A stretch of DNA of 53,668 bases from Terriglobia bacterium (GTDB taxonomy: Bacteria > Acidobacteriota > Terriglobia > Bryobacterales > Bryobacteraceae): NCBI GenBank assembly GCA_021324185.1, contig JAJPJN010000145.1, positions 1 through 53,668 of the forward strand, written 5' to 3'. The position numbers were made by a program, and so were the translations under genes. Positions within the stretch are counted from its first letter, which is position 1, and each line of letters starts with the position of its first letter. The notes below the pieces were generated by a model, which saw only the letters and a list, made by a program, of their open reading frames with translations, did no database searches and was not told where the DNA came from. Positions 2,801-36,057 of the stretch are shown here, one piece after another.

Positions 2801-4270
2801 TCAGTCTCCCGCCGTCATGACAGCAGCCTGTTCCTTCTGCTCTTTCTGCTGTTTAACGAACTGCTTTCGTTTCGAACGCAGCGACAGATATTCGCGCGCT
2901 TCTTTATACAGGCGCTTGCGTTCGGCATTATTAAACATTGCCTTGCCTACCAGCCGCAGAGCCACCTTGGGACGGAAATAGAATTCGGCGTAGAAGCGCT
3001 CTACCCAATCCACCAGCTCCGCGCGATCCAGTCCCGGATATTGATAATTCGGAAGCTGATGGCCGGCCTCATCGCACATGGCGCCGTCGATGGTGATCAG
3101 GCCGTTCTTAACGATGTGCTCGTAGTATTCGGTGCCGGGGAAGGCGTGGCCGATGGAGACCTGAATGGTTTCGACATCCAACTCCTTGGCGAAATCGATG
3201 CTCTTGCGGATGGTCTCGCGCGTTTCGCCGGGCAGGCCGACAATGAAGTCGCCGTGGATGGTAATCCCGAGTTTCTTGCAGTTGGCCGTGAAGCGGCGCG
3301 CCATATCGATGGTGGCGCCCTTCTTGATGTTTTTCAGAATCTGCTGGTCACCCGATTCGTAACCCACGATAAGCAGCCGGCAACCGGCATCTTTCATCGC
3401 CTTGAGCGTGTCGTAATCGGTCGTCACGCGCGAGGTGCAGCTCCAGGTGAAGTTGAGCTTTTTCAGCTTGGAGCAGAGTTCTATAGTGCGGGCTTTCTGG
3501 TAATTGAAGGTGTCGTCGTCGAAAAAGATTTCTTTCAGGCCCGGGAAGTTCTCCAACGCCCACTTGCACTCGTTATAAACGTCTTCGGAGGAACGCAGGC
3601 GCCAGCGGTGGCCCGAATGCGTCTGCGGCCATAAGCAGAAGGTGCACTGGGCCGGACAACCGCGCGTGGTGTAGAACGCGATGTACGGGTTCAGCAGGAA
3701 GGGAACGTTGTAGCGGCGGAAATCCAGATCGCGCTTATAGACTTTTGTGACCCAAGGCAACGCGTCCAGGTCTTCAATCACCGGGCCCTCGGGATTGTGC
3801 TGAAAACCACCGTTCTTGCGGAACACAACGCTGGGGATTTCTTCGAGCGGCTTGCCCATGGCGAAGTCGCGTATCGGGTAATCGAATTCTTTCTTGACGA
3901 CGAAGTCGATCGCCTTCGAAGCGAGCAGGCTCTTTTCAGGCTCGATAGTCACCGGCGGCCCGACAAAAGCGACCTTCAGCTTCGGATTGAGGTCCTTCAT
4001 CATCTCGGCGATTCGCACGTCGACATGAAAGCCGGGCGTGGAGGTAAACAGCACCAGCAGCTCGAAGTCGGAAGCCATCGCCACAGTCTGATCAATAGAG
4101 ATCTTGTGCGGCGGCGCGTCCACGACTTTGCTGTCCGGAATCATACCGGCCGGGTAGCAGAGCCAGACCGGATACCAGTAAGATTCAATTTCCCGCGAGG
4201 CTGGCCAGCGTGACCCCGCACCACCATCAAATCCTTCAAAAGAAGGAGGGTTTAAAAAAAGCGTTCTCAT
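2801..4270 (-). CDS. hpnJ: HpnJ-like B12-binding radical SAM protein of hopanoid modification
   Basis: A 489-residue radical SAM enzyme. Residues about 1-140 form a cobalamin-binding-like domain. The radical SAM domain follows with TTRGCPAQCTFC (about 201-212), the CxxxCxxC cluster that holds the 4Fe-4S centre, then FFDDDTF and GLPGET. The sequence FCLWPQT after the cluster is characteristic of the HpnJ subgroup. In the known pathway HpnJ contracts the sugar of glucosaminyl-bacteriohopanetetrol to the cyclitol ether head group of hopanoids. The C-terminal 30 residues are rich in Lys/Gln/Glu. It leads the minus-strand hopanoid string (hpnJ, two half-transporters, hpnI). An imperfect inverted repeat (TAACC at 4283 and GGTTA at 4292) lies just upstream. 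Confidence 0.85.
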   Translation of the reverse strand: MRTLFLNPPSFEGFDGGAGSRWPASREIESYWYPVWLCYPAGMIPDSKVVDAPPHKISIDQTVAMASDFELLVLFTSTPGFHVDVRIAEMMKDLNPKLKVAFVGPPVTIEPEKSLLASKAIDFVVKKEFDYPIRDFAMGKPLEEIPSVVFRKNGGFQHNPEGPVIEDLDALPWVTKVYKRDLDFRRYNVPFLLNPYIAFYTTRGCPAQCTFCLWPQTHSGHRWRLRSSEDVYNECKWALENFPGLKEIFFDDDTFNYQKARTIELCSKLKKLNFTWSCTSRVTTDYDTLKAMKDAGCRLLIVGYESGDQQILKNIKKGATIDMARRFTANCKKLGITIHGDFIVGLPGETRETIRKSIDFAKELDVETIQVSIGHAFPGTEYYEHIVKNGLITIDGAMCDEAGHQLPNYQYPGLDRAELVDWVERFYAEFYFRPKVALRLVGKAMFNNAERKRLYKEAREYLSLRSKRKQFVKQQKEQKEQAAVMTAGD

Positions 4271-22383: not shown

Positions 22384-23037
22384 TCAGCTATCCACTCGCA
22401 GATTGTTCGTCACCGAAAATACACCGGGAACAGCATTTGCCTGGATGTTGGCAATATCTCTATCGCCATTTGCTCCCACTGCGCCCTCCAGAGTGACATG
22501 GCCGTTCTTCACGACGATGTGTATGGCGTGGTAGCCAACAGGCGGGTCGTTTGTGATTCCCGTCCACCAGGCAAGGCGGCTTTGGAAGATAGGACCGGTT
22601 CGATTGGAAGTGTACTTCTGCAACACCGGCGTTCTGTAGATCCGCGCGTAAACCGCCGCCCGGATGCGGTCATCGTTCGGCGAGAGAGGCAGCACGTCAA
22701 TTTTGTTGTGCACCTTGCGAACTCCTTCGATTCGTTTCACGGCTTTTTCTGCCGCGCTCTTGAGCATTGGCCGTGAGGCTTGGCCTAAAAGCGTCACGTT
22801 GCAACCGTCCACTCGATATTCGAGGTTGTCGAATACGCCGTAATACGGCAGCATCGCGAGTTCATGATGTACCTGGCTCGCGATGCGCGCTTCTGTATCG
22901 CGGCTGAACGCGGCTGAAGCGTGCTTGTTACTGCACGCGTGCTTCGCTTCGGCGTGTAAGTTAGCCGGGAGAATTGTCGCGAACGCGATCGCACCCAGCA
23001 GTGCAGATCGTTTCAAGTGTTTATAGATCATGGTCAT
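22384..23037 (-). CDS. periplasmic double BON-domain protein
   Basis: A 217-residue exported protein: signal peptide MIYKHLKRSALLGAIAFATILPA, a linker, then two BON domains. The first covers about 60-120 (RIASQVHHELAMLPYYGVFDNLEY, VTLLGQASRPMLKSAAEKAV; given as separate pieces) and the second about 135-215 (IRAAVYARIYR, GHVTLEGAVGANGDRDIAN, VFSVTNNLRV). BON domains bind phospholipid and stabilise the envelope under osmotic or other stress, as OsmY does. The start is the ATG at 23037, 25 bases after the transcription start predicted by the sigma-54 promoter at 23073-23089. A paired enhancer-like site lies further up. It stands alone, closed by its own terminator. Confidence 0.85.
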   Translation of the reverse strand: MTMIYKHLKRSALLGAIAFATILPANLHAEAKHACSNKHASAAFSRDTEARIASQVHHELAMLPYYGVFDNLEYRVDGCNVTLLGQASRPMLKSAAEKAVKRIEGVRKVHNKIDVLPLSPNDDRIRAAVYARIYRTPVLQKYTSNRTGPIFQSRLAWWTGITNDPPVGYHAIHIVVKNGHVTLEGAVGANGDRDIANIQANAVPGVFSVTNNLRVDS

Positions 23038-23149: not shown

Positions 23150-23185
23150 TGCCCGAAAAGCGCCTCTGATGCCTCTTTTCGCACA
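23150..23185. promoter_or_regulatory. paired enhancer-like dyad upstream of the BON gene
   Basis: Two 16-bp sites, TGCCCGAAAAGCGCCT and TGCCTCTTTTCGCACA, start 20 bp apart (two helical turns). Each is an imperfect dyad of G/C-rich arms around a four-base A/T core. The pair lies about 60 bp upstream of the -24/-12 promoter. The same arrangement recurs at 27123, 31779 and 36022. Confidence 0.6.
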
Positions 23186-23211: not shown

Positions 23212-24816
23212 TTAGCGAGAGCCGGTCTTCAATGCCAGCGGCTCCTCTAGCGGTAAATCCACGGTCAGCGGTGGGTGATCTGAAATGCGATCCTCAACCG
23301 CCTGATTTAGTTGGTTCATCGTGATGGCGAAGTGTGGCGCGAAGCGATAGCTTTGTTGCGGAGCGCGCGGATCGCGGATGAACGGCTTCACAAAAAACCA
23401 GTCGAGCTTGAAATTGCCAATCCAGCCGCCATAATTCCTTTCAAAAGCATAGGTCGGAACGAATCCTTTACGCCCTCGCTGGTTACTGTTGGCAAGGGTT
23501 CCTTGTTTGTTGTTAAGAGTTCGCTCGGTCGTCCCACGAAAATCAAATGCGTAGCCATCGCTGAACCGGAATTTCTCTACAGACCGAAAAAGGCCGCGTT
23601 CGCGGTTTTCCCAAAAAAATGGAAAATGAAACGCCGTGGGATCAAGATATTGATGAAAGTAGCGAAGAGGAACAATCGCGTAGTGGGGAATGCTTATGGG
23701 GCTGCCCCAGAAGATCGCCTGATTAACCCAGAAACGATAGTCGGTAACCCTTTTCATGATTTCGTTTCTCACGGAAGTGGGAGTTGCATCACTCCCGGAA
23801 GTGTTGAGATCTCCGGCGAGCACTATGGGATTATCGATCGATTGAATGACACGAAGAAGGGCTTTCATCTGGCGTTGACGGCATCCGGGCGGGCACTTAT
23901 TTTCGAGGTGTACCGAGATAACAGTCAGTCTTCCGGTGGGAAATGCCGGCACCGCAAGATCAACGATAAGCGCCATACGTCCTCCGCGCCGCACTTCGCG
24001 CTTGACGCGCTCGCGGAATAGCTTGCTGGCAGACCAGCGCTTGCCTTGCTCCAGCGTGGCGATCGCCTTGGTTTCTTTGCCGTACCAGTCATAGCAGACT
24101 GGAAGCCGGACGATGCGTGCCCGCTCAATTGGATAACGGCTTAGAATGGCGTTCCCGTGCAGGCCGTGATATCGCGCCGGATCGACCTTCAAATCTTCTT
24201 CCAAACGCCGTTCCTCGTCTTTGTCCGGCAGGTCGATCTTTTCAATGCCGAGATCGAATAGCGGGTCTACCTCGACAAACTCGACTCCGTACGCATAATT
24301 CATATGCAGGGCAGCAGCCAAATCGCGCGAAACATCGCGGTACTCAGTGCGTTTCATTCCCAGGTCGACTTCATTCAGAATTAGAACGTCGGTTTCCTGT
24401 AGCGCGCTGAGCTGCGCCTGAACCACTTGATCGCCCGCGCGATTTTCATATCCCGCTTCTCGCCGGAACTGTTCGGGATTTCCAAGTGCCGATTCGATCA
24501 GATGGAAATTGAGGCCGCGCTCTATATTCCACGATGCCGCCCGGACAATGCTGCCCAGACCTTCAACCGTGGGCCGATGCGGGTGAATGTCATTTATGGT
24601 CGCATCGTTTCCTATGAATGGCGTGGTAAGTACCTCGTTCAGCTTTCCCGCCAGTATGTCTTTCGGCTCGGCTACCGCCGCCAGAACTTTCAACTCGTCG
24701 AAGGAGAGAAACCCGGGTGCCGAAGCTTTTGCGACAGCATGCGATTCGTTTTGTGGAAAGGTCGCGACGGGGAGGCAAGCCAGCAACAGGCACGCGATCC
24801 TCAGCTTCATCGTCAT
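23212..24816 (-). CDS. exported endonuclease/exonuclease/phosphatase (EEP) family protein
   Basis: A 534-residue protein with a signal peptide (KLRIACLLLACLPVATF). The EEP fold is shown by VRAASWNIERGL (about 94), DVLILNEVDLGM (metal Glu, about 145), LHGNAILSRYPI, TVISVHLENKCPPGCR, VLAGDLNTSGSD (Asp/Asn, about 335) and ISDHPPLTVDL (His, near the C-terminus). It is a metal-dependent phosphodiesterase or nuclease of unknown substrate, probably periplasmic. The ATG at 24816 has GCAGG about nine bases upstream. It is convergent with nothing and ends about 65 bp from the BON enhancer. Its codons about 27-157 are duplicated at 28272-28662. Confidence 0.85.
   Translation of the reverse strand: MTMKLRIACLLLACLPVATFPQNESHAVAKASAPGFLSFDELKVLAAVAEPKDILAGKLNEVLTTPFIGNDATINDIHPHRPTVEGLGSIVRAASWNIERGLNFHLIESALGNPEQFRREAGYENRAGDQVVQAQLSALQETDVLILNEVDLGMKRTEYRDVSRDLAAALHMNYAYGVEFVEVDPLFDLGIEKIDLPDKDEERRLEEDLKVDPARYHGLHGNAILSRYPIERARIVRLPVCYDWYGKETKAIATLEQGKRWSASKLFRERVKREVRRGGRMALIVDLAVPAFPTGRLTVISVHLENKCPPGCRQRQMKALLRVIQSIDNPIVLAGDLNTSGSDATPTSVRNEIMKRVTDYRFWVNQAIFWGSPISIPHYAIVPLRYFHQYLDPTAFHFPFFWENRERGLFRSVEKFRFSDGYAFDFRGTTERTLNNKQGTLANSNQRGRKGFVPTYAFERNYGGWIGNFKLDWFFVKPFIRDPRAPQQSYRFAPHFAITMNQLNQAVEDRISDHPPLTVDLPLEEPLALKTGSR
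24347..24739. repeat. copy A of a ~390-bp direct repeat (intact EEP gene)
   Basis: This stretch of the EEP gene matches 28272-28662 at about 94% identity by eye, with a net loss of two bases in the second copy. Both copies have the same orientation. Confidence 0.9.
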
Positions 24817-25007
24817 AGCGTACAACCTGCTTATCCTGACTCATTGGTATCGCAGATCTAAAAGATCAAGTTCACCTTCCAGCCTCCGCAATACTGAATC
24901 GTTAATCGCATTCTCGTTGCGGAGCTTCCTGCTCGACAAGTGGAGCCATATTGCTTCACAGCGACTCTTGTTTGATCGGAGGAGATGATCAATGCGCGAG
25001 TGTATCC

Positions 25008-25157
25008 TCAGGGCTGAGTTTCGGCTTCGTGTGACTCGACTTCTCGTTCTGCTTCAAACCAGTCCCCTTCCGCAGATCCGTCCGGACGACCTCGATCTCC
25101 CCAGCGATGATAGGCCCGAGATGCAAAAGCACGCCGCAACCACTCACCATTAGCCAC
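25008..25157 (-). CDS. short DUF2934 protein (49 residues)
   Basis: The GTG at 25157 has AAGGA nine bases upstream and opens a 49-residue frame. It contains ASRAYHRWGDRGRPDGSAEGDWFEAE in pieces (ASRAYHRW, GRPDGSA, DWFEAEREV), the DUF2934 helix pair. The frame continues above the GTG without family similarity, so this could instead be a truncated copy. The homolog at 31377-31598 has about 25 extra N-terminal residues. The DNA around it (24817-25007 and 25158-25467) shows no other gene. A sigma-54-like site with an 11-bp spacing lies at about 25183-25199, one base short of functional spacing. Confidence 0.5.
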   Translation of the reverse strand: MANGEWLRRAFASRAYHRWGDRGRPDGSAEGDWFEAEREVESHEAETQP

Positions 25158-25467
25158 AGAGGTAATCCTTGGACTTATCGCTGGCACCAAATTGCCATTC
25201 CTGTCCCCTTTGGGGCAGCGGAGAAACCGGCCAGAGCCTATGTGAAATTGCAATACTGCATTTCTGTCCGACTTCTTTCTCGCGCCCAAGCACGGCGTAA
25301 CGAGAGCACATGGTCACTTGACTTTACCTGACGACAGCAAAGCAGAGACTGAGTTGACCCAGCTTAAGAATACTTACGGAACAGATCCGAGATGAATTGC
25401 TGGTCACCGATAAACCTATCGATACATGGCAGCGATGCGCCGATTTCTCTCGATGGCCAAAGTCCAA

Positions 25468-27122: not shown

Positions 27123-27157
27123 TGCCTCAAAAGGATATGCGTGTGCGTTTTGAGGCA
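27123..27157. promoter_or_regulatory. paired enhancer-like dyad between two divergent genes
   Basis: The first site begins TGCCTCAAAAGG and the second is TGTGCGTTTTGAGGCA, whose complement TGCCTCAAAACGCACA matches the sites at 31779 and 36022 closely. It lies between the minus-strand exported protein and the plus-strand AraC gene, in the gene-free stretch 26794-27280. I found no clean -24/-12 promoter on the minus side. Confidence 0.5.
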
Positions 27158-28178: not shown

Positions 28179-28271
28179 TTCCCGCTTCGGATGCTCCCGG
28201 CGGAGAAATGCACGCAGATGTGAAACGGTGATCTCATTACCGGGAGTCAGCACAATCAAGCGTTCGATGAT
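28179..28271 (-). pseudogene. fossil of a second NtrC-type activator gene
   Basis: The minus strand reads [15 protein letters not shown] then [12 protein letters not shown], which aligns with [15 protein letters not shown] and [12 protein letters not shown] of the activator at 32131-33537. The nucleotide match is about 78% over 80 bp. Only this stretch of the region between the AAA+ domain and the DNA-binding helix is left. It stops abruptly at 28271, where the EEP fragment begins. Confidence 0.7.
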
Positions 28272-28662
28272 GTGCGTTTCATTCCCAGGTCGACTTCATT
28301 CAGAATTAGAACGTCGGTTTCCTGTAGCGCGCTGAGCTGCGCCTGAACCACTTGATCGCCGGCGCGATTTTCATATCCTGCCTCTCGCCGGAACTGTTCC
28401 GGATTTCCAAGTGCTGATTCGATCAGATGGAAATTGAGTCCGCGCTCAATATTCCAAGATGCCGTCCGGACAATGCTACCCAGACCTTCAACCGTGGGCC
28501 GATGCGGGTGAAGGTCATGTACGCTCGCATCGTTTCCTATGAATGCGTTGTAAGTTCTAGTTCAGCTTTCCCGCCAGTATGTCTTTCGGCTCGGCTACCG
28601 TCGCCAGAATTCTCAACTCGTCGAAGGAGAGAAGCCCGGGTGCCGAAGCTTTTGCGACAGCA
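28272..28662 (-). pseudogene. fossil fragment of the EEP-family gene (copy B of the repeat)
   Basis: About 391 bp equal to codons 27-157 of the intact gene at 23212-24816, about 94% identical by eye. Two missing bases near 28540-28560 break the frame, and there is no start, signal peptide or C-terminal half. It lies in the same orientation as the activator fossil with no gap between them. The surrounding gene-free stretch 28169-28686 contains nothing else that I can support. Confidence 0.85.
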
Positions 28663-28686
28663 ATCCGTGCTCGCCGTACACTTACC

Positions 28687-29982
28687 TTACAGTAGAGTTC
28701 CTCTAAGTATCAGGCTGGCGATGCTGAAATAAATAACCAGGCCGGTTACATCAACCAGGGTTGCGACAAACGGCGCCGAGGCGCTGGCTGGATCAAGGCC
28801 GGTGCGGCGCAGCGCAAACGGCAGCATCGATCCCGCAATTGTGCCAAACAGAACGACCCCCACCAGACTGCACGCAACCGTCAACGCTATTACGGCGTAG
28901 TGAGCGCCGTAAGTTTTCCAAATCGCTTGCCAAACCAGGATGCGAGCCATGCCGATCACAGCTAAAACGCTGCCCAGAGCTAAACCGGTAGACAGTTCGC
29001 GGTAAATAACCCGCCACCAGTCGCGCAGACGCACTTCACCCAAGGCCATTGCCCGGATCACAAGCGTTGTCGCCTGCGAACCGGAGTTCCCCCCACTGCT
29101 GATGATCAGCGGCACAAATAGCGCCAGCACGACAGCGCGAGCGATCTCCTGCTCGAAATAGCCCATCGCGGTGGCAGTTAGCATTTCGCCGATAAACAGG
29201 ATGGTGAGCCAGCCCGCCCGCTTTTTCACCATTGGCCAAAACCCGATGTGAAGATAGGGCCCGTCCAGGGCCTCCATTCCACCGACCTTCTGAATATCCT
29301 CGCTTGCCTCTTGCTCCACTACTTCGACGATGTCGTCGGCGGTAACAATTCCCTTCATCCGGCCATCGGAATCAAGTACCGGAATCGCAAGCAGGCGAGA
29401 CTCCGTAAAAAGACGCGCGACCGCTTCCTGATCCATCTGCTCTGAAGCGAACACAAAGTTTGTTCGCATCATGTCGCGGACAAGTTTCGAGCGATCGGCT
29501 GCAAACAAATCCCGGAATCCCGCAACGCCGAGCAAGCGTTGCGCTTCATCGAGCACGTAGGCGTAATAGATCGTCTCGACATGGCTTGCTTGATGCCGGA
29601 CATAACTGATCGCCTCGTCAACAGTCATTTCGGGACGCAGGCGAGCGAAACGAGGACTCATCAAGCCGCCCGCCGCGTCCTCCTTGTAAGCCAAAAGTGC
29701 GTTCACCTCACGCCGCGTGACGTCGTCCAGTTGGGCTGCGAGTTGTTGCCGTTCTTCCGCCGGAGCCAGTTGAAGCAGGTCGGCCGCGTCGTCCGGAGGC
29801 AAAAGCCGTAACCAGATCCGCCTTTCTCCCGCAGGCAGCGCTAATAATAGTCGAAGCTGATCCCGGCTGCTTAGCTGGAGAAAGATGCCGTCAGCCCGGT
29901 CGCGCGGAAGGTTTTCAAATGCTTCCACGCGTTCTGATTCGGATAGATCATTCCATTCTTCAAGCAGCGCGCTGGTCGTCAT
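28687..29982 (-). CDS. mgtE: MgtE-family magnesium transporter
   Basis: A 431-residue inner-membrane magnesium channel/transporter. The cytoplasmic part has the N-domain (LPRDRADGIFLQL, LPPDDAADLLQLAP), then two CBS domains (about 120-240) that sense magnesium. Five membrane helices follow, with PLIISSGGNSGSQATTLVIRA (in parts: GGNSGSQ) and DPASASAPFVATLVDVTG, both hallmarks of MgtE. The length is normal. The stop of the upstream SYLF gene touches the start (TGA then GTG ATG at 29982-29988), so they are translated together. The ATG at 29982 is taken as the start. Confidence 0.95.
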   Translation of the reverse strand: MTTSALLEEWNDLSESERVEAFENLPRDRADGIFLQLSSRDQLRLLLALPAGERRIWLRLLPPDDAADLLQLAPAEERQQLAAQLDDVTRREVNALLAYKEDAAGGLMSPRFARLRPEMTVDEAISYVRHQASHVETIYYAYVLDEAQRLLGVAGFRDLFAADRSKLVRDMMRTNFVFASEQMDQEAVARLFTESRLLAIPVLDSDGRMKGIVTADDIVEVVEQEASEDIQKVGGMEALDGPYLHIGFWPMVKKRAGWLTILFIGEMLTATAMGYFEQEIARAVVLALFVPLIISSGGNSGSQATTLVIRAMALGEVRLRDWWRVIYRELSTGLALGSVLAVIGMARILVWQAIWKTYGAHYAVIALTVACSLVGVVLFGTIAGSMLPFALRRTGLDPASASAPFVATLVDVTGLVIYFSIASLILRGTLL

Positions 29983-29985
29983 CAC

Positions 29986-30663
29986 TCACCGGGAATATCG
30001 GTTTAATGTCGCAATAAACTCCGATGCTGTACGGGGGGCATGGACCTTACCGAGAATGATCTGCTGGTTGCTCCAGCGCTTTCCATACAGCGTCTTGTTC
30101 TCATCCCGATCATCGCGCAGAGTGGCGCCGTTTAGCGAAAGGCCGGCAAAGATGCCGCGCGACCGTGACCACGACAGTATCTGCGCAGTCATCTTTGCAT
30201 CGGTTTCAGCCGCCGCGTTGCGCCCTACCGGCCCGGCGGCCACATCGGCACTCGCTCCCAGAGTAAATTTGCTTTCGAGCAGCCGTCGCATGCCGGTTTC
30301 ATTCATCACCAGCAGAATTACGTCTGTTTCAGAGGCGCCTATCTGCCACCCCACGCTGCCGCCTTCCATTCGCATTGCGCCGGGTGAACTCCAGCGGCCG
30401 TGCCCATCACGGCAAGATATGAATCCGCGGCCATATTTCCCCCCGACGACAAAAGCGGCCTTCTTGACGCCGGGAACAATGACGATGCATTGCGCCTTGT
30501 CCATTAAGTCCTGAGGGATGCCTCTATCGGGCGCTTGCATGATTTCCTTGAGCACGACGGTCGCGCTATTGAGGCGCTCCGAAACGGTTTCCCCGTGCGC
30601 CTGGATCGAGAGGCTAAGCATCGCCATGATGCTCGCGAATAAAAACAAAATACGTTGTTGCAT
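29986..30663 (-). CDS. SYLF/YSC84 lipid-binding domain protein
   Basis: A 225-residue exported protein (signal peptide from QQRILFLFASIMAMLSLSIQA). The SYLF domain covers the rest: DKAQCIVIVPGVKKAAFVVGGKYGRG in parts (CIVIVPGVKKAAF), GSVGWQIGASETDVILLVMN, FTLGASADVAAGPVGR and SWSRSRGIFAGLSLNGA. The family binds phosphoinositides in eukaryotes; the bacterial role is probably envelope or lipid-linked. CAGGAGACAGCAATG gives a clear ribosome binding site. It lies 77 bp downstream of the DksA-like gene with no terminator seen between, so DksA-like, SYLF and MgtE genes may form one transcript driven by the sigma-54 promoter at 31202. Confidence 0.9.
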   Translation of the reverse strand: MQQRILFLFASIMAMLSLSIQAHGETVSERLNSATVVLKEIMQAPDRGIPQDLMDKAQCIVIVPGVKKAAFVVGGKYGRGFISCRDGHGRWSSPGAMRMEGGSVGWQIGASETDVILLVMNETGMRRLLESKFTLGASADVAAGPVGRNAAAETDAKMTAQILSWSRSRGIFAGLSLNGATLRDDRDENKTLYGKRWSNQQIILGKVHAPRTASEFIATLNRYSR

Positions 30664-30740
30664 TGCTGTCTCCTGGAATGTAAATGTTTATGGGTTAATT
30701 TCCGGCTGGGATTTTGCGTCCTTACCGGGGGCGATCTAAG

Positions 30741-31142
30741 TTAGGCGGCTTGGGCGTGAAACGGTTGCGAGCTGTTCCCGTTAGCAAGACTCTCCTGGCA
30801 TTGCAGGCAATAGCCGGTCCACGGAATCGCTTTCAATCGCTTTTCGGAAATCGGCTCCTCACATTCCTCACAGATGCCGTATTCGCCGCGGCTCAGACGT
30901 TCGAGAGCGGCGTCGATTGCCTTGATCTTTTCGTAAGCCAGATTGTTGAATCGTATGGAAACGAACTGCTCATGCAGAACAGGTGCCTGATCTTCCATCG
31001 GCACCTGGCCGCTATGCAGCACATCGAGGCGGCAGCGGAGCTCAGATTCGATCCGTGCTTTCTCCGCAGCCAGCAGCTTGGAATAATGCTCCGACTCGGC
31101 GGATTCGGCGGCAGCGCGGCTGACATCTTGCAAATAAGACAT
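30741..31142 (-). CDS. DksA/TraR-type C4 zinc-finger protein
   Basis: A 133-residue cytoplasmic protein. An alpha-helical coiled coil (about 15-90, ending DAALERLSRGEYG) is followed by the four-cysteine zinc finger CEECEEP...GYCLQCQ. DksA-type proteins reach into the RNA polymerase channel and alter initiation during starvation or stress. The coiled-coil tip lacks an obvious DxxDxA motif, which suggests a specialised member rather than housekeeping DksA. It has GGAAG nine bases before the ATG. A sigma-54 promoter lies 60-76 bp upstream of the ATG. Confidence 0.85.
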   Translation of the reverse strand: MSYLQDVSRAAAESAESEHYSKLLAAEKARIESELRCRLDVLHSGQVPMEDQAPVLHEQFVSIRFNNLAYEKIKAIDAALERLSRGEYGICEECEEPISEKRLKAIPWTGYCLQCQESLANGNSSQPFHAQAA

Positions 31143-31201
31143 GATTGATAACTTCCTTTCTATGCTGGTGTTCGGCCAGCGTTGTTGTTCGAACCTATAA
31201 G

Positions 31202-31218
31202 TGCAATCGCATAGCCAC
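31202..31218 (-). promoter_or_regulatory. sigma-54 promoter of the DksA-like gene
   Basis: On the minus strand GTGGCTATGCGATTGCA has GG and GC 12 bp apart and a perfect TTGCA. The leader would be about 49 bases. A weaker A-rich G/C-flanked site (CCCCAAAAAAGCGGCC) lies 30-45 bp upstream but does not match the dyad well. Confidence 0.65.
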
Positions 31219-31376
31219 TTATGGTCAGGCCCTTGACGCGGATAACATGCGCCCCAAAAAAGCGGCCGCCCGCGTCAGCTACTACGCTTCGGCGGACGGC
31301 CGGTAGGAAAGGGAAATTGTTTCGCTGTCTCGGGTCTGATAATGGGAGGGAAATCAATCAGCGCGAGAGCGAGTGC

Positions 31377-31598
31377 TCAGGGCGCCGCTCCGGTCTCCTG
31401 AGATTTTAGTTCCCGTTCTGCCTCGAACCAGTCCTCTTCGGCCGATCCGTGCGGCTTGCCTCTACGTTGCCATCGTTCATAAGCGCGCGAGGCAACGTCG
31501 AAATCGGTGCACTGCTCCTGATACGCTTCCATGGAGCGCCGGCTTTCGTCCTCTTCCACCGGCGTCTCTGGTGAATAACTGTTTCTCGATTTGCTCAT
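31377..31598 (-). CDS. DUF2934 protein
   Basis: A 73-residue cytoplasmic protein beginning MSKSRNSYSPETPVEEDE. The DUF2934 motif is ASRAYERWQRRGKPHGSAEEDWFEAE in pieces (ASRAYERW, GKPHGSA, DWFEAERELK). AAGGA lies seven bases before the ATG. Proteins of this family are small, charged and of unknown function, often linked to stress. A strong sigma-54 promoter at 31665-31682 and the dyad pair at 31779-31814 stand upstream. Confidence 0.85.
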   Translation of the reverse strand: MSKSRNSYSPETPVEEDESRRSMEAYQEQCTDFDVASRAYERWQRRGKPHGSAEEDWFEAERELKSQETGAAP

Positions 31599-31664
31599 TG
31601 TAAGTTCCTTTCTCTGCTTGGTTCGTAGCAATCTCGGATGACCGCGATTGCTTGCTATGGATAG

Positions 31665-31682
31665 TGCATTCGCCATGCCAAT
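31665..31682 (-). promoter_or_regulatory. sigma-54 promoter of the DUF2934 gene
   Basis: The minus strand has ATTGGCATGGCGAATGCA, a near-ideal match (TTGGCAT then TGCA, GG and GC 12 bp apart). The leader to the ATG at 31598 is about 56 bases. The dyad pair starts about 97 bp further upstream. Confidence 0.75.
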
Positions 31683-31778
31683 GCGGTGCCGCGCCGTTTG
31701 AAACCGCATAATGCTTGGGTCTGCACGCACATTTGCGAAAGCCGATTCTACCGGCAGTGCAGATTTTCAGTTGCCTGC

Positions 31779-31814
31779 TGCCGCAAAAGCGCCATCATTG
31801 TGCGTTTTGAGGCG
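31779..31814. promoter_or_regulatory. paired enhancer-like dyad shared by two divergent promoters
   Basis: TGCCGCAAAAGCGCCA and TGTGCGTTTTGAGGCG start 21 bp apart. It lies 97 bp from the minus-strand promoter and about 74 bp from the plus-strand promoter at 31888, so one activator could serve both. The stretch 31599-31935 holds only these elements. Confidence 0.65.
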
Positions 31815-31887
31815 AGGAGATGTTCTGTTATCTTCTGCTCGACTGTTGCGCATCTCGTTACCGCGTGAAAGCACATGCCTCAAGCAG

Positions 31888-31904
31888 ATGGTCGTCTGAT
31901 TGCA
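31888..31904 (+). promoter_or_regulatory. sigma-54 promoter of the 58-residue membrane protein
   Basis: ATGGTCGTCTGATTGCA has GG and GC 12 bp apart and a good TTGCA -12 element; the -24 element is weaker. The leader to the TTG at 31936 is about 21 bases and contains AAAGGAGA. Confidence 0.55.
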
Positions 31905-31935: not shown

Positions 31936-32112
31936 TTGATCGAACTCAAAAATACGGAACAGGAGAGCGAACGCTCTCTTCCCTGTGCCGGCGACCATGC
32001 GCCCCGGCAATACCCGTTTCGTACTTCCGTTGCACTCACCGCAAAGCTGCTCATTATCGCCGGCAGCGTATTTGTTTTTATCTGGATGCTCGATGTTTTA
32101 CTCGCACCCTAA
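31936..32112 (+). CDS. 58-residue single-pass membrane protein
   Basis: The TTG at 31936 follows AAAGGAGA at the right distance. The protein has a polar N-terminal 35 residues and one membrane helix (LTAKLLIIAGSVFVFIWML) ending LDVLLAP. No family is recognised. It is divergent from the DUF2934 gene and shares its dyad pair. It ends 18 bp from the convergent activator gene. Its single-pass form suits a small envelope-stress peptide, but this is inference. Confidence 0.6.
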   Translation: MIELKNTEQESERSLPCAGDHAPRQYPFRTSVALTAKLLIIAGSVFVFIWMLDVLLAP

Positions 32113-32130: not shown

Positions 32131-33537
32131 TCAATCAAGCGCGCGCTCCGCTTCCTCTTCATCCTGCGCGCTGTTACCGCGTTGAATGCCATGCTTCTCC
32201 ATGCGATAAATCAGCGTCTTCCGGCTGATATCGAGATACTTGGCCGCGTGTGTCTGGTTCCAGTTAAACTTCTCCAGCGCTTTCAGGATCAATTCTTTCT
32301 CGATCGCCTCCAGGCTGATTCCCTGGGACGGAAGCTCGATATTCAGGTTGTCGATGGATGGATGCTCGCGGCGAAGAAAAGCGGGCAGATCCGAAATTGT
32401 GATCTCGTTGCCTGGAGTCAGTACCACCAGGCGTTCAATGACATTTTCCAGTTCGCGAATGTTGCCAGGCCACCGGTAGTTACTGAAGTACGGCATCAGT
32501 GAGATCGGCAGCGTGAGACCTTCCCGGCCATGCTTCTGCTTCAGCTTTGAGAAAAAGTGCTGCACAAGTTGCGGTACGTCGTCAGCACGCTCGCGCAACG
32601 GCGGCAGTTCCAGCGGAATTACCGACAAACGGTAATACAGATCCTCGCGAAATGCGCCGTCCTCGATCATGGCTTCCAGATTGCGATGCGTTGCGGCAAT
32701 GATACGCACATCCACCATACTCGCGCTCGGGGCGCCCACCTTCTCTATCTCACCCTGCTGGATCAGCCGGAGCAGCTTCACCTGAAGCTCGAGCGGCATT
32801 TCTCCGATCTCATCGAGAAACAGAGTCCCTCCATCTGCCGACTCCACTTTGCCTTTCCGGTGCGCGACGGCGCCCGTAAACGAGCCCTTCACGTGACCGA
32901 ACAACTCAGATTCGAGCAAATCCTTCGGTATCGCGCCGCAGTTTATCGTGACGAACGGTTTTTCACGGCGGCGGCTGTTGAAGTGGACCGCTTTTGCCAG
33001 CAGTTCCTTGCCTGTACCGGTTTCCCCATGAATTAGCACCGTCGCATCTGTTTGTGCAGCCCGCGATGCCATGTCCAGCACGTAAAGCAGCGATTTAGAT
33101 TGCCCGATGATGTTTTCAAATCCGTACTTTGCATCCAGGCTGCTTCGCAACAGGCGGTTGTCAACCAGAAGCTGCAGGTGCTCGAGCGACCGCCGCACAA
33201 CTAACTCGAGTTCATCCGCATGCACGGGCTTCGTTATATAGTCATACGCGCCCGCTTTCATAGCCTCTACAGCGGTATCGATTGTGCCAAACGCAGTCAG
33301 CATGACAACCGAAATGTCCGGGTACTCCGTGCGTATTCGCTTGAGTAACTCGAGGCCTGAGATTCCGGGCATCTTTAAGTCAGTAATGACAAGATCCACG
33401 GGCGACTTTTGAAGTATGTTCAGCGCTTCCGCGCCGTCGCTGGCCGTTAGTGTTTTGAAGCCCGCTTGCTCCAACTGTACTTGCGTTACCCGCCTGAGGC
33501 TCTCATCGTCGTCCACCACGAGTATGCGGTTCGTCAC
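32131..33537 (-). CDS. NtrC-family sigma-54-dependent response regulator
   Basis: A 468-residue activator. The receiver domain has DDD near residue 9-11 and the phosphoacceptor Asp 53 in ITDLKMPG, with TKPV near 105. The AAA+ domain (about 145-385) carries Walker [11 protein letters not shown], the sigma-54 contact loop GSFTGA (a variant of GAFTGA), and Walker [11 protein letters not shown]. The C-terminal helix-turn-helix is [23 protein letters not shown], shown in part ([15 protein letters not shown]). It activates sigma-54 promoters from upstream sites. The GTG start overlaps the kinase stop by four bases. It probably controls the -24/-12 promoters found on both sides of it. Confidence 0.95.
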
Positions 33538-34622
33538 GTCGCTTCTCTTTCAGTAGACAGCGGAATCTCGAGAGAGAATGTCATGCCTCGATCGGCGTTT
33601 CTCATGGCGCTCAGAACTCCGCCTTGCCGGGCAGCGATCTGGTGCGCGACTGGAAGCCCGAGCCCGGTGCCCGATTCCTTGGTAGTAAAAAATGGGTCAA
33701 AGATCTTTTCCAGATTGTCCTCGCTGATGCCGGTGCCTTGATCGCGCACCTGAATGACTGCATTGCCGTCTTGCCGGTGCGCAGACAACACAACTTCGCC
33801 CCCGTCCGGCATCGCTTGAATCGCATTGATCGTCAGGTTCAGAAGAATTTGCGTGAGCTGCTCTGAATCACATTCCAGTTCTGTCAATTCGCTCGCAATC
33901 TCTTTTCGAAAGACGATGTGATTGCGCCGGCTCGCATGCTCCGCCAGCGCCACCACGGAGTCAAGCATCTGATCAACGCGAACTTTCGCAAACTCGGGTT
34001 CGCGCGGCTTTGCAAAGTTCAGAAAGTTGGTAAGCAGCCGGTTCAAACGCCGGCACTCCTTCTGAATGATCTGCAAAAATTCGATTCTCCGCTCTTCCGA
34101 TGGCGGTTCACGAAGCAGAACGGCCGCCGCTCCCTCGATGCTCGCCAGTGGATTCCTGATCTCGTGCGCCAGGCCGGCCGAGAGCTGGCCTAGAGCGTAG
34201 AGACGCTCGGCTCGCTTCATGCGCTCGAAATTGTCCTGCAGTTCCCGATATACCCGCGACAACTGTTCTGTTGTCTCTTGCAGAACCTTTTTCTGTCTCC
34301 TCTCACGATCGGCAAGCAGTCCAGCCACAATGCCCGCGAGGAAAAAGAACGTTACTTCTGCACACTGATTGATGGAGTAACTCGGATGCAGTTTCCATGT
34401 CGTCACAATCTGCGGCAAATACGCCAGGCCGGCAAGCAGAGCAGCCAGCAGACCGCCACGCCAGCCGAAGTAGAGTCCGGCATACACCACCGGTACATAA
34501 AAAAGTCTTTGGATCAGGTAATGCACCTGAACCATCGAATCCGGCGTAAAGTAATGGACCGTGCTGATCCCGAGGGTGACAGCGATTATGCCTAACGCAC
34601 GTAAGAGGTCCCTGCGCGCCAT
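33534..34622 (-). CDS. membrane histidine kinase partnering the activator
   Basis: A 362-residue kinase from the ATG at 34622 (a TTG at 34640 is possible). The N-terminus has four or so membrane helices (LLRALGIIAVTLGIS, FYVPVVYAGLYFGW, FFLAGIVAGLLA), resembling the DUF4118/MASE-type sensors. A coiled linker leads to the HisKA site GLAHEIRNPLASIE, and the HATPase domain has LNLTINAIQAM (N box), DQGTGISEDNLEKIFDPFFTTK in part (DQGTGIS) and GTGLGLPVA. It phosphorylates the response regulator, to which it is coupled by a four-base overlap. The signal is sensed in or near the membrane and is unknown. Confidence 0.9.
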   Translation of the reverse strand: MARRDLLRALGIIAVTLGISTVHYFTPDSMVQVHYLIQRLFYVPVVYAGLYFGWRGGLLAALLAGLAYLPQIVTTWKLHPSYSINQCAEVTFFFLAGIVAGLLADRERRQKKVLQETTEQLSRVYRELQDNFERMKRAERLYALGQLSAGLAHEIRNPLASIEGAAAVLLREPPSEERRIEFLQIIQKECRRLNRLLTNFLNFAKPREPEFAKVRVDQMLDSVVALAEHASRRNHIVFRKEIASELTELECDSEQLTQILLNLTINAIQAMPDGGEVVLSAHRQDGNAVIQVRDQGTGISEDNLEKIFDPFFTTKESGTGLGLPVAHQIAARQGGVLSAMRNADRGMTFSLEIPLSTEREAT

Positions 34623-34651
34623 TTCGTCTCTACGAACCAATTCTTTCAGAC

Positions 34652-35122
34652 CTACGCCGCGTCTGGTCCGCCGGCCCGTGAAACAGGCTCGCCGCGATCA
34701 AGTATCTCTTCGTTGAAAACTCTTTCTGCGATTCTTCCCAAAGTCCGAAGCACCTGACGCTGAAGATCAAGAACGGGAGCTCTGATGCCGATCGGCAGAT
34801 CGCTTTGTCGAACGTGTTCGAGGTTCAGCATATGGACCAGAGTCCGATTCCCGGATCCCGAAATGACCAGATGCAGAGGTATCAAAGTGCCGGAAGCACG
34901 ATCAATCGCCGTCGTTTCAAGCGAGAATGCCGGATTATCAATCAGCAGAATCCGGCACGGTGCTACGTAGATCTCGAGTGCGCGTCTGACTCTGTGGGCC
35001 GTGTCGATCTCCGCCGCTATAGACAGTTGATCATCGCGTAATGCCCGGCGAATTCGCGACAACGCGGGATCAAACGGGCTCTGGATTATAAACGCGGCTG
35101 TCGAATTGGCGCGGCTTTCCAT
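34652..35122 (-). CDS. DUF302-like protein upstream of the kinase
   Basis: 156 residues from the ATG at 35122, which has AAGGA about 12 bases upstream; the ATG at 35146 is an alternative without one. The body resembles a DUF302 beta/alpha domain: SRIRRALRDDQLSIAAEIDT, RILLIDNPAF, IPLHLVISGSGNRTLVHML (each short part of the fold). The C-terminal 25 residues are basic and Ala-rich. DUF302 proteins are of unknown function. Only 29 bp separate it from the kinase, so DUF302, kinase and activator probably form one operon. A strong terminator precedes it, so the operon's promoter lies in 35123-35154 or transcription is attenuated. Confidence 0.6.
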   Translation of the reverse strand: MESRANSTAAFIIQSPFDPALSRIRRALRDDQLSIAAEIDTAHRVRRALEIYVAPCRILLIDNPAFSLETTAIDRASGTLIPLHLVISGSGNRTLVHMLNLEHVRQSDLPIGIRAPVLDLQRQVLRTLGRIAERVFNEEILDRGEPVSRAGGPDAA

Positions 35123-35154
35123 TGTTATCAGGTTTCCTTGAGGCATTGAATTAG

Positions 35155-35204
35155 AAAAAAAGGAACTCGGGGAGATCGGCCTCCGGAAAGCCGGCCCGAG
35201 TTCC
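35155..35204 (-). terminator. rho-independent terminator
   Basis: GGAACTCGGG (35162-35171) pairs with CCCGAGTTCC (35195-35204), with extra pairing of CCGG around the loop. On the minus strand the stem is followed by seven T residues. It closes the transcript of the coiled-coil gene (stop at 35269) or an RNA starting between the two. Confidence 0.9.
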
Positions 35205-35210
35205 TGGCGG

Positions 35211-35242
35211 GCACAGGACTGGCCCCCGCGACCAGCCTGTGC
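35211..35242 (-). other. second stable hairpin ahead of the terminator
   Basis: GCACAGGACTGG (35211-35222) pairs with CCAGCCTGTGC (35232-35242), with one bulged base. Together with the terminator hairpin it makes a structured segment of about 90 nt between the coiled-coil gene and the DUF302 gene. It could be a long 3' end, a small RNA or a leader that controls the DUF302-kinase-activator operon. Confidence 0.5.
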
Positions 35243-35268
35243 GCTTTTCAACCCCGGACAATCGTTAA

Positions 35269-35877
35269 TTACGATTCAGAGAGACCAATTCTCTCCTGAA
35301 GCCGATCCAGCTTCTTCTGCATTCGATCGAGCTTATCCGAGGTGTCGCCGAACTCTAAAAACAGATCCGCAGATTCCTTCAATTCCGCCGATCGTTCGGC
35401 GATTGAACTCAAGTGATCCGTATACTCCGGCGCGAGGAGACGGTTGCGGTTTTCGTTCAGGTGCTGAATCGCAGCTTCCGTATGGGCTGCCAGATCCGCC
35501 GCCACCGGAACGATCTCCTCAATCGCGCGTTGTTGCCACGGCGCGACTTCGGATCGAATCGCCTGCAAGCGACCCAGCCGCTTGCCGATTTCGTTGATGT
35601 GCTCTCGCGCCAGGTTTAGCCGCTGCGCGTGGGTCTGCCAATGTAACTGGGTTTGCGACTTGTATGACTCCAGAATGCCGGTATCAATCTTCAGTTTTCC
35701 ACTGAGGAATTTGATCTCCTTCAGCAAACCGTTGGCTTCCGCGCCGAAACTCCACACCCGGTATTCCGCGCTATTGACCTTGCTCGTGCTCACTTCCGGC
35801 GCAGCGGATGCGGCAGACGTGGCCACAAGAGCCAGCAACGGCAGGTAAGCGAATTTTCGAAGATGAGTTGAACGCAT
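35269..35877 (-). CDS. exported alpha-helical coiled-coil protein
   Basis: A 202-residue secreted protein. The signal peptide is RKFAYLPLLALVATSAASA. The mature part is all helical and charged, with heptads such as LLKEIKFLSGKLKID, LGRLQAIRSEV and LDRMQKKLDRLQERIG. The ATG at 35877 has AAGGAG nine bases upstream. It is not a family I recognise. It has a sigma-54 promoter (35921-35937) and a dyad pair (36022-36057) upstream, so it belongs to the same predicted regulon as the BON and DUF2934 genes. A periplasmic stress role is likely from context only. Confidence 0.75.
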   Translation of the reverse strand: MRSTHLRKFAYLPLLALVATSAASAAPEVSTSKVNSAEYRVWSFGAEANGLLKEIKFLSGKLKIDTGILESYKSQTQLHWQTHAQRLNLAREHINEIGKRLGRLQAIRSEVAPWQQRAIEEIVPVAADLAAHTEAAIQHLNENRNRLLAPEYTDHLSSIAERSAELKESADLFLEFGDTSDKLDRMQKKLDRLQERIGLSES

Positions 35878-35920: not shown

Positions 35921-35937
35921 GGCAATCCGCATGCCAA
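35921..35937 (-). promoter_or_regulatory. sigma-54 promoter of the coiled-coil gene
   Basis: On the minus strand TTGGCATGCGGATTGCC matches the -24/-12 consensus closely, with GG and GC 12 bp apart. The leader would be about 33 bases. Confidence 0.75.
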
Positions 35938-36021: not shown

Positions 36022-36057
36022 TGCCCGAAAGACGCCATCGCTGTGCCTTTTCAGGCG
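36022..36057. promoter_or_regulatory. paired enhancer-like dyad upstream of the coiled-coil gene
   Basis: TGCCCGAAAGACGCCA and TGTGCCTTTTCAGGCG start 21 bp apart, with the same spacer layout as at 31779-31814. It ends about 55 bp after the TonB receptor stop codon and stands about 85 bp upstream of the -24/-12 promoter. Confidence 0.65.

Follow-up and report, generated by a model that had tools for sequence, protein, structure and literature searches.

The 36 bases at 31779-31814 of the window (the whole analyzed stretch of 53,668 nucleotides, from a Terriglobia bacterium genome of 4.7 Mb in 184 contigs) probably form a two-site enhancer of the adjacent NtrC-type response regulator, serving promoters on both sides. 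Their sequence, TGCCGCAAAAGCGCCATCATTGTGCGTTTTGAGGCG, is composed of TGCCGCAAAAGCGCCA, TCAT, and TGTGCGTTTTGAGGCG: two 16-bp sites in inverted orientation, with a distance of 20 bp, or about two helical turns, between their A/T tracts. The pair and its immediate surroundings comprise the following features, with the -24/-12 sites scored by a matrix built on the sigma-54 consensus:

31779..31814, no strand: inverted 16-bp site pair, proposed shared enhancer; cross-genus matrix score 27.4; counterparts in the relative G050 and in other genera
31665..31680, minus: -24/-12 site TGGCATGGCGAATGCA facing DUF2934; score 13.8; 99 bp from the pair; 19/20 bases kept in G050
31889..31904, plus: -24/-12 site TGGTCGTCTGATTGCA facing the 58-aa membrane protein; score 9.2; 75 bp from the pair
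31377..31598, minus: DUF2934 protein, 73 aa, ATG frame; Pfam PF11154, 53.4 bits, cut-off 22
31936..32112, plus: 58-aa protein starting with TTG, with a single hydrophobic stretch and a -24/-12 site upstream
32131..33537, minus: NtrC-type response regulator, probable activator; Response_reg, Sigma54_activat, and HTH_8 domains

The sequence-only reading had placed the pair between two divergent -24/-12 sites and beside the activator's own gene. The sequence at 31665-31904 bears this out, with two outward -24/-12 elements around one candidate activator site, as in the shared-enhancer class, and the regulator is encoded next to it. The distances it gave (97 and 74 bp) measure 99 and 75 bp here. 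Its "dyad pair" is correct as an inverted pair, but the second 16-mer makes a poor dyad by itself, with 2/16 positions self-complementary compared with 10/16 in the first. Measured against the sigma-54 consensus, the right promoter is weak (9.2, versus 13.8 on the left). An Rfam scan of the window at gathering scores returned no family, and we rejected a terminator reading of 31779-31814, given that divergent starts and outward promoters flank the site.

Judged alone, the inverted repeat is chance-like and ordinary for the window: its arms agree at 10/16 positions, and 135 places in the window, this one included, reach an arm likeness of at least 10/16 at the same spacing. The site stands out from chance through the comparison with other genera, not through the strength of the repeat. 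We scanned 61 loci totaling 880 kb, made up of 40 loci retrieved through homologues of the kinase or the small protein, 20 that are mostly places of the strict motif described below, and the window. At a score of at least 20, the scan returned 42 matches, one of them seen twice, leaving 41 distinct sites spread over 21 genomes and 13 genera, whereas three block shuffles of the same 880 kb gave 0, 0, and 1 matches. Such sites were present in 8/40 of the loci fetched mainly for the kinase homologue and absent from 32/40. The ordinary strength of the repeat would fit a chance inverted repeat between chance promoter-like matches, but this explanation is contradicted by the cross-genus matrix, the shuffles, and the conserved layout, and we consider it very improbable.

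The recurring sites also carry promoters. Counting an outward -24/-12 site with a score of at least 11 at 35-125 bp from the pair, we found one on 42/82 flanks of the 41 sites, compared with 1.9% per flank at 4000 random positions. Both flanks had an outward promoter at 13/41 sites, about 90 times more commonly than at random positions (0.35%); 16/41 had one on a single flank and 12/41 on neither. The window site is itself counted as one-sided, because its right promoter falls below 11. Among the 27 sites outside the training set of the matrix, 29/54 flanks had a promoter, and 11 sites were both-sided.

The same layout is found in G050, a member of the same genus whose kinase and regulator are 80 and 83% identical to those of the window. 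Its pair (L037:4793-4829) lies 63 bp from TGGCATCGCGAATGCA, which faces a TraR/DksA-type gene, and 53 bp from the right promoter TGGTCCGCCGATTGCA (score 13.4), which faces a 59-aa membrane-type protein. We compared the two intergenic regions by an anchored alignment in place of a plain MAFFT alignment, which misplaced the pairs because the spacers differ (96 versus 60 bp on the left, 74 versus 52 bp on the right). The left promoter is identical at 19/20 positions and exceeds shuffled alignments; the right promoter (13/16 by eye, 17/21 aligned) and the dyad block (25/32 aligned bases) show, singly, no clear excess over shuffles, and spacer identity is no higher than in shuffles. The conservation check proposed along with the sequence-only reading thus turned out positive: G050 keeps the pair and both promoters amid diverged spacers, and the layout recurs in other genera. 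The "tight two-gene module" of that reading did not survive, because the left gene is of the TraR/DksA type in G050 and DUF2934 in the window, so that the left promoter was retained while the gene behind it changed. In G016, from another genus, outward promoters stand at 57 and 53 bp from a pair; one leads to a TraR/DksA-type gene and the other to a possible 78-codon frame followed by the kinase-regulator genes. In the records of six relatives (L131-L134, L174, and L192, of 80), the best pair score was not above 16.

These data also bear on whether the pair is a genuine enhancer of the regulator that acts on a single promoter, with a -24/-12 match on the opposite side that is fortuitous or driven from elsewhere. 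The score of 9.2 on the right and the single-flank sites speak for this possibility, but G050 keeps both promoters with a stronger right-hand one, both-sided sites far exceed the random rate, and the small membrane protein has an upstream -24/-12 site in three of the four other genomes where it was found (four weak homologues in 199 other family genomes). We therefore regard service of a single promoter as unlikely and favor an enhancer shared by both. Neither the 58-aa protein nor its counterpart in G050 matched a Pfam family. One-helix relatives of it occur at L054:9169-9282, L052:14363-14521, and L053:11051-11203, and two of these three are preceded by a -24/-12 site.

The distances from the edge of a pair to its promoter cluster at 51-57, 62-63, 71-77, 86-88, 92-99, and 108-109 bp, plus one at 41 bp. 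With all data, the best period was 11.2 bp (R 0.60-0.61), and 0/2000 uniform sets reached this R. When near-equal distances were collapsed per genus, 28 or 25 values were left, and the share of uniform sets that did so was then about 1% (30/3000 or 23/3000). Nine weak best matches gave an R of 0.49 at 11.2 bp, a figure based on nine values only. Phasing of the spacings at about 11 bp is thus likely.

The neighboring regulator has the features of a candidate cognate activator, with a GSFTGA sigma-54 contact motif (a GAFTGA variant), Walker A, TLFLDE, an aspartate at 52-53, and the HTH_8 domain. The window genome holds a single match to the sigma-54 gene (PF04552, 199.2 bits). The regulator ends a probable operon, upstream of which lies a second pair:

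33534..34640, minus: sensor histidine kinase; HisKA and HATPase_c, with DUF4118 below its cut-off
34652..35251, minus: DUF302-like protein; PF03625 at 19.6 bits, below the cut-off of 23 (G050 counterpart 32.1, above)
35269..35877, minus: 202-aa protein, first gene of the probable regulator operon
35921..35936, minus: -24/-12 site TGGCATGCGGATTGCC facing the regulator operon; score 14.1
36022..36057, no strand: second enhancer pair, 86 bp from the promoter at 35936; score 29.6 with the matrix trained without the window's genus

The promoter TGGCATGCGGATTGCC heads four closely packed minus-strand genes, the last ones being the kinase and the regulator; no Pfam family matched the 202-aa protein. 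G050 also has a pair (L037:8238) in front of its DUF302-like, kinase, and regulator genes, at 54 bp from TGGCCTCCTGTTTGCA. The pair at 36022 suggests probable autoregulation of the regulator operon. The closest named matches of the kinase are from Bryobacterales MAGs, and at E 1e-60 the kinase was found in 3/9 other genomes of the sampled genus, indicating that the module is patchy. A fragment at 28188-28289 on the minus strand, outside any intact regulator gene, is 70% identical to regulator residues 357-393 and is the remnant of a second regulator copy.

We also searched with a strict pattern (the 36-mer with 3 mismatches and fixed spacing), which under-counts and misses the 37-bp site of G050. 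It occurred at 17 distinct places in 12/237 family genomes, compared with 0 for the reversed control. Across the phylum (396 genomes, 393 of them outside the family), it was found in 1/393 genomes outside, and the reversed control also gave 1. A loose pattern, GCCNNAAAN{15,18}TTTNNGGC, had 7 places in the window genome, 3/7 within 9 kb on the window contig, and its rearranged control had 10, none on that contig; the loose motif is therefore not enriched genome-wide, and only its clustering is unusual.

The strict places outside the window, found regardless of the regulator, address the possibility that another enhancer-binding protein or a repressor, not the neighboring regulator, binds the pair. 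Genomes of this family encode many sigma-54 activators, and 5/15 of the places had no regulator of this type in the stretch fetched; by contrast, at 10/15 such a regulator, with at least 60% identity to that of the window, was encoded no more than 10 kb away. In a tree of 51 regulators, a sample that was not blind because some loci were chosen for the motif, the site-bearing label follows the tree, needing 4 changes versus 16.4 in shuffles. The helix-turn-helix reads NQTH in 19/21 motif-associated regulators versus 6/30 others. Binding by a different protein is on these grounds quite improbable, and the adjacent regulator remains our candidate. At L038, L040-L051, and other site-less loci, regulators 64-76% identical have other helix-turn-helix residues and no motif in the fetched stretch; these close paralogues may have other targets.

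The matrix used for the window-wide scan was trained on ten sites of other genera, none from the window's genus. It gave 29.6 at 36022, 28.5 at 23150, 27.4 at 31779, 26.5 at 27123, and 20.7 at 25182, with the next score at 9.4. The pair at 31779-31814 is thus among the top four sites (26.5-29.6), all within 13 kb, and the window carries at least four enhancer-like pairs, one of them before the probable regulator operon. The remaining pairs, together with the genes to the left of DUF2934, are as follows:

23150..23185, no strand: enhancer-like pair upstream of the BON-domain protein; score 28.5; -24/-12-like site of 9.4 at 62 bp
22384-23037, minus: BON-domain protein; BON 77 bits
27123..27157, no strand: enhancer-like pair with perfectly inverted outer arms; score 26.5; -24/-12-like site of 11.8 at 88 bp
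25182..25217, no strand: enhancer-like pair with a lower score (20.7), next to a second DUF2934 stretch
31202..31217, minus: -24/-12 site TGGCTATGCGATTGCA facing the TraR/DksA-type gene; score 12.2
30741..31142, minus: TraR/DksA-type zinc-finger protein; PF01258, 45.8 bits
29986..30663, minus: Ysc84-domain (SYLF) protein; PF04366, 126.4 bits
28687..29985, minus: MgtE-type transporter; PF01769, PF03448, and CBS

The -24/-12-like site 88 bp from the 27123-27157 pair faces an AraC-type gene. Adjoining the 25182 pair, DUF2934 similarity was found at 25011-25127 (64% over 39 residues), and a degenerate copy of the module may be present at 25011-25217. No enhancer pair was found near 31202-31217, nor any single arm scoring at least 8 within 29151-31778; in G050, a gene of the TraR/DksA type stands directly under the shared pair. 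By eye, the frames 28427-28732 and 24427-24861 have PRCRPDNA.QTFNRGPMRV in common, which suggests duplication and decay of part of the gene at 23212-24825.

Pfam-supported genes behind the motif encode TraR/DksA-type proteins (L037, L039), an Rnk protein with a GreA/GreB C terminus (L116), Usp (L120), the BON-domain protein of the window (22384-23037), and a Na/H exchanger (L120). At nine both-sided sites from four genera (L072, L113, L116, L118, L121, and L125-L128), a DUF302-like gene is paired with an Rnk-looking gene, as judged by a Pfam scan at L116 and by eye at the rest; the DUF302-like partners score below the Pfam cut-off in the window and L072 and above it in G050. Proteins of 67-73 aa behind the motif (L071:10093-10296, L121:8782-8985, L126:5272-5493, and L115:8297-8509) have a C-terminal four-cysteine, tryptophan-rich pattern, and the one from L071 matched no Pfam family. 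A ribosome-hibernation factor, proposed for the L114 gene by its look, was dropped because there was no Pfam match. The predicted targets suggest a role in stress or slow growth.

We propose that the kinase would phosphorylate the regulator encoded at 32131-33537, which would then assemble on both 16-bp sites at 31779-31814 and make contact with sigma-54 polymerase at each of the two flanking -24/-12 sites. Leftward, this would switch on DUF2934 and perhaps genes beyond it; rightward, it would switch on the 58-aa membrane protein, and the other copy of the pair, at 36022, would provide feedback on the operon that encodes the regulator. The observations are the sequences themselves, their repeated occurrence alongside outward promoters, and their genomic proximity to the regulator; from these we infer binding, control by phosphorylation, looping, and activation of both genes.

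Upstream activator sequences common to divergent sigma-54 promoters are present between nifH and nifJ of Klebsiella, where the activator is NifA and the function is nitrogen fixation. The ZraR site differs in sequence from the motif at 31779-31814. ZraR of Salmonella and E. coli, like the regulator proposed here, is of the NtrC two-component type and controls divergent sigma-54 promoters, those of zraSR and zraP (PMC4987338), one of which is that of the regulator genes, in an envelope-stress setting (PMC4987338; gene table in PMC8743547). Here, in contrast, a separate pair precedes the regulator operon, and the proposed targets of the shared pair are different genes (DUF2934 and the 58-aa protein); none of the nine neighbors scanned matched the Pfam family of ZraP, the periplasmic chaperone encoded by the divergent gene. 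In Desulfovibrio vulgaris, DVU2106 activates the divergent, co-expressed orp1 and orp2 operons through palindromic sites between their sigma-54 promoters, together with IHF; it differs in being a one-component activator with IHF sites in between (PMC3897727). Also in D. vulgaris, a common activator motif has been predicted for divergent type III secretion operons, where the activator and the genes are different ones. The architecture is thus already known from the zraP-zraSR and orp1-orp2 precedents. Our literature searches found no paper on the motif or regulon of 31779-31814, and no assigned sigma-54 activator site for Acidobacteriota came up; the main text of a 2025 survey of sigma-54 regulons (PMC12316311) does not contain "Acidobacteri."

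The motif yields a predicted regulator-site pair and a short list of target genes in Acidobacteriota. Bacteria of this phylum are abundant in soil and encode many NtrC-type regulators. The layout of the site bears on whether one bound activator serves two promoters, and the recurring spacings offer natural variants for the phasing of close, rigid enhancers with sigma-54 polymerase. As a broader and tentative reading, which we hold to be possible but less probable than not, one Acidobacteriota family may use a single exchangeable bidirectional cassette to run a stress regulon. The cassette would consist of a two-site enhancer flanked by two sigma-54 promoters and kept in helical register with them; its targets, exchanged behind promoters that stay in place, would include TraR/DksA-type and Rnk/Gre-type proteins, for which an action on RNA polymerase itself is expected. 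If this were true, the transcription machinery as a whole would be retuned by a two-component sigma-54 system.
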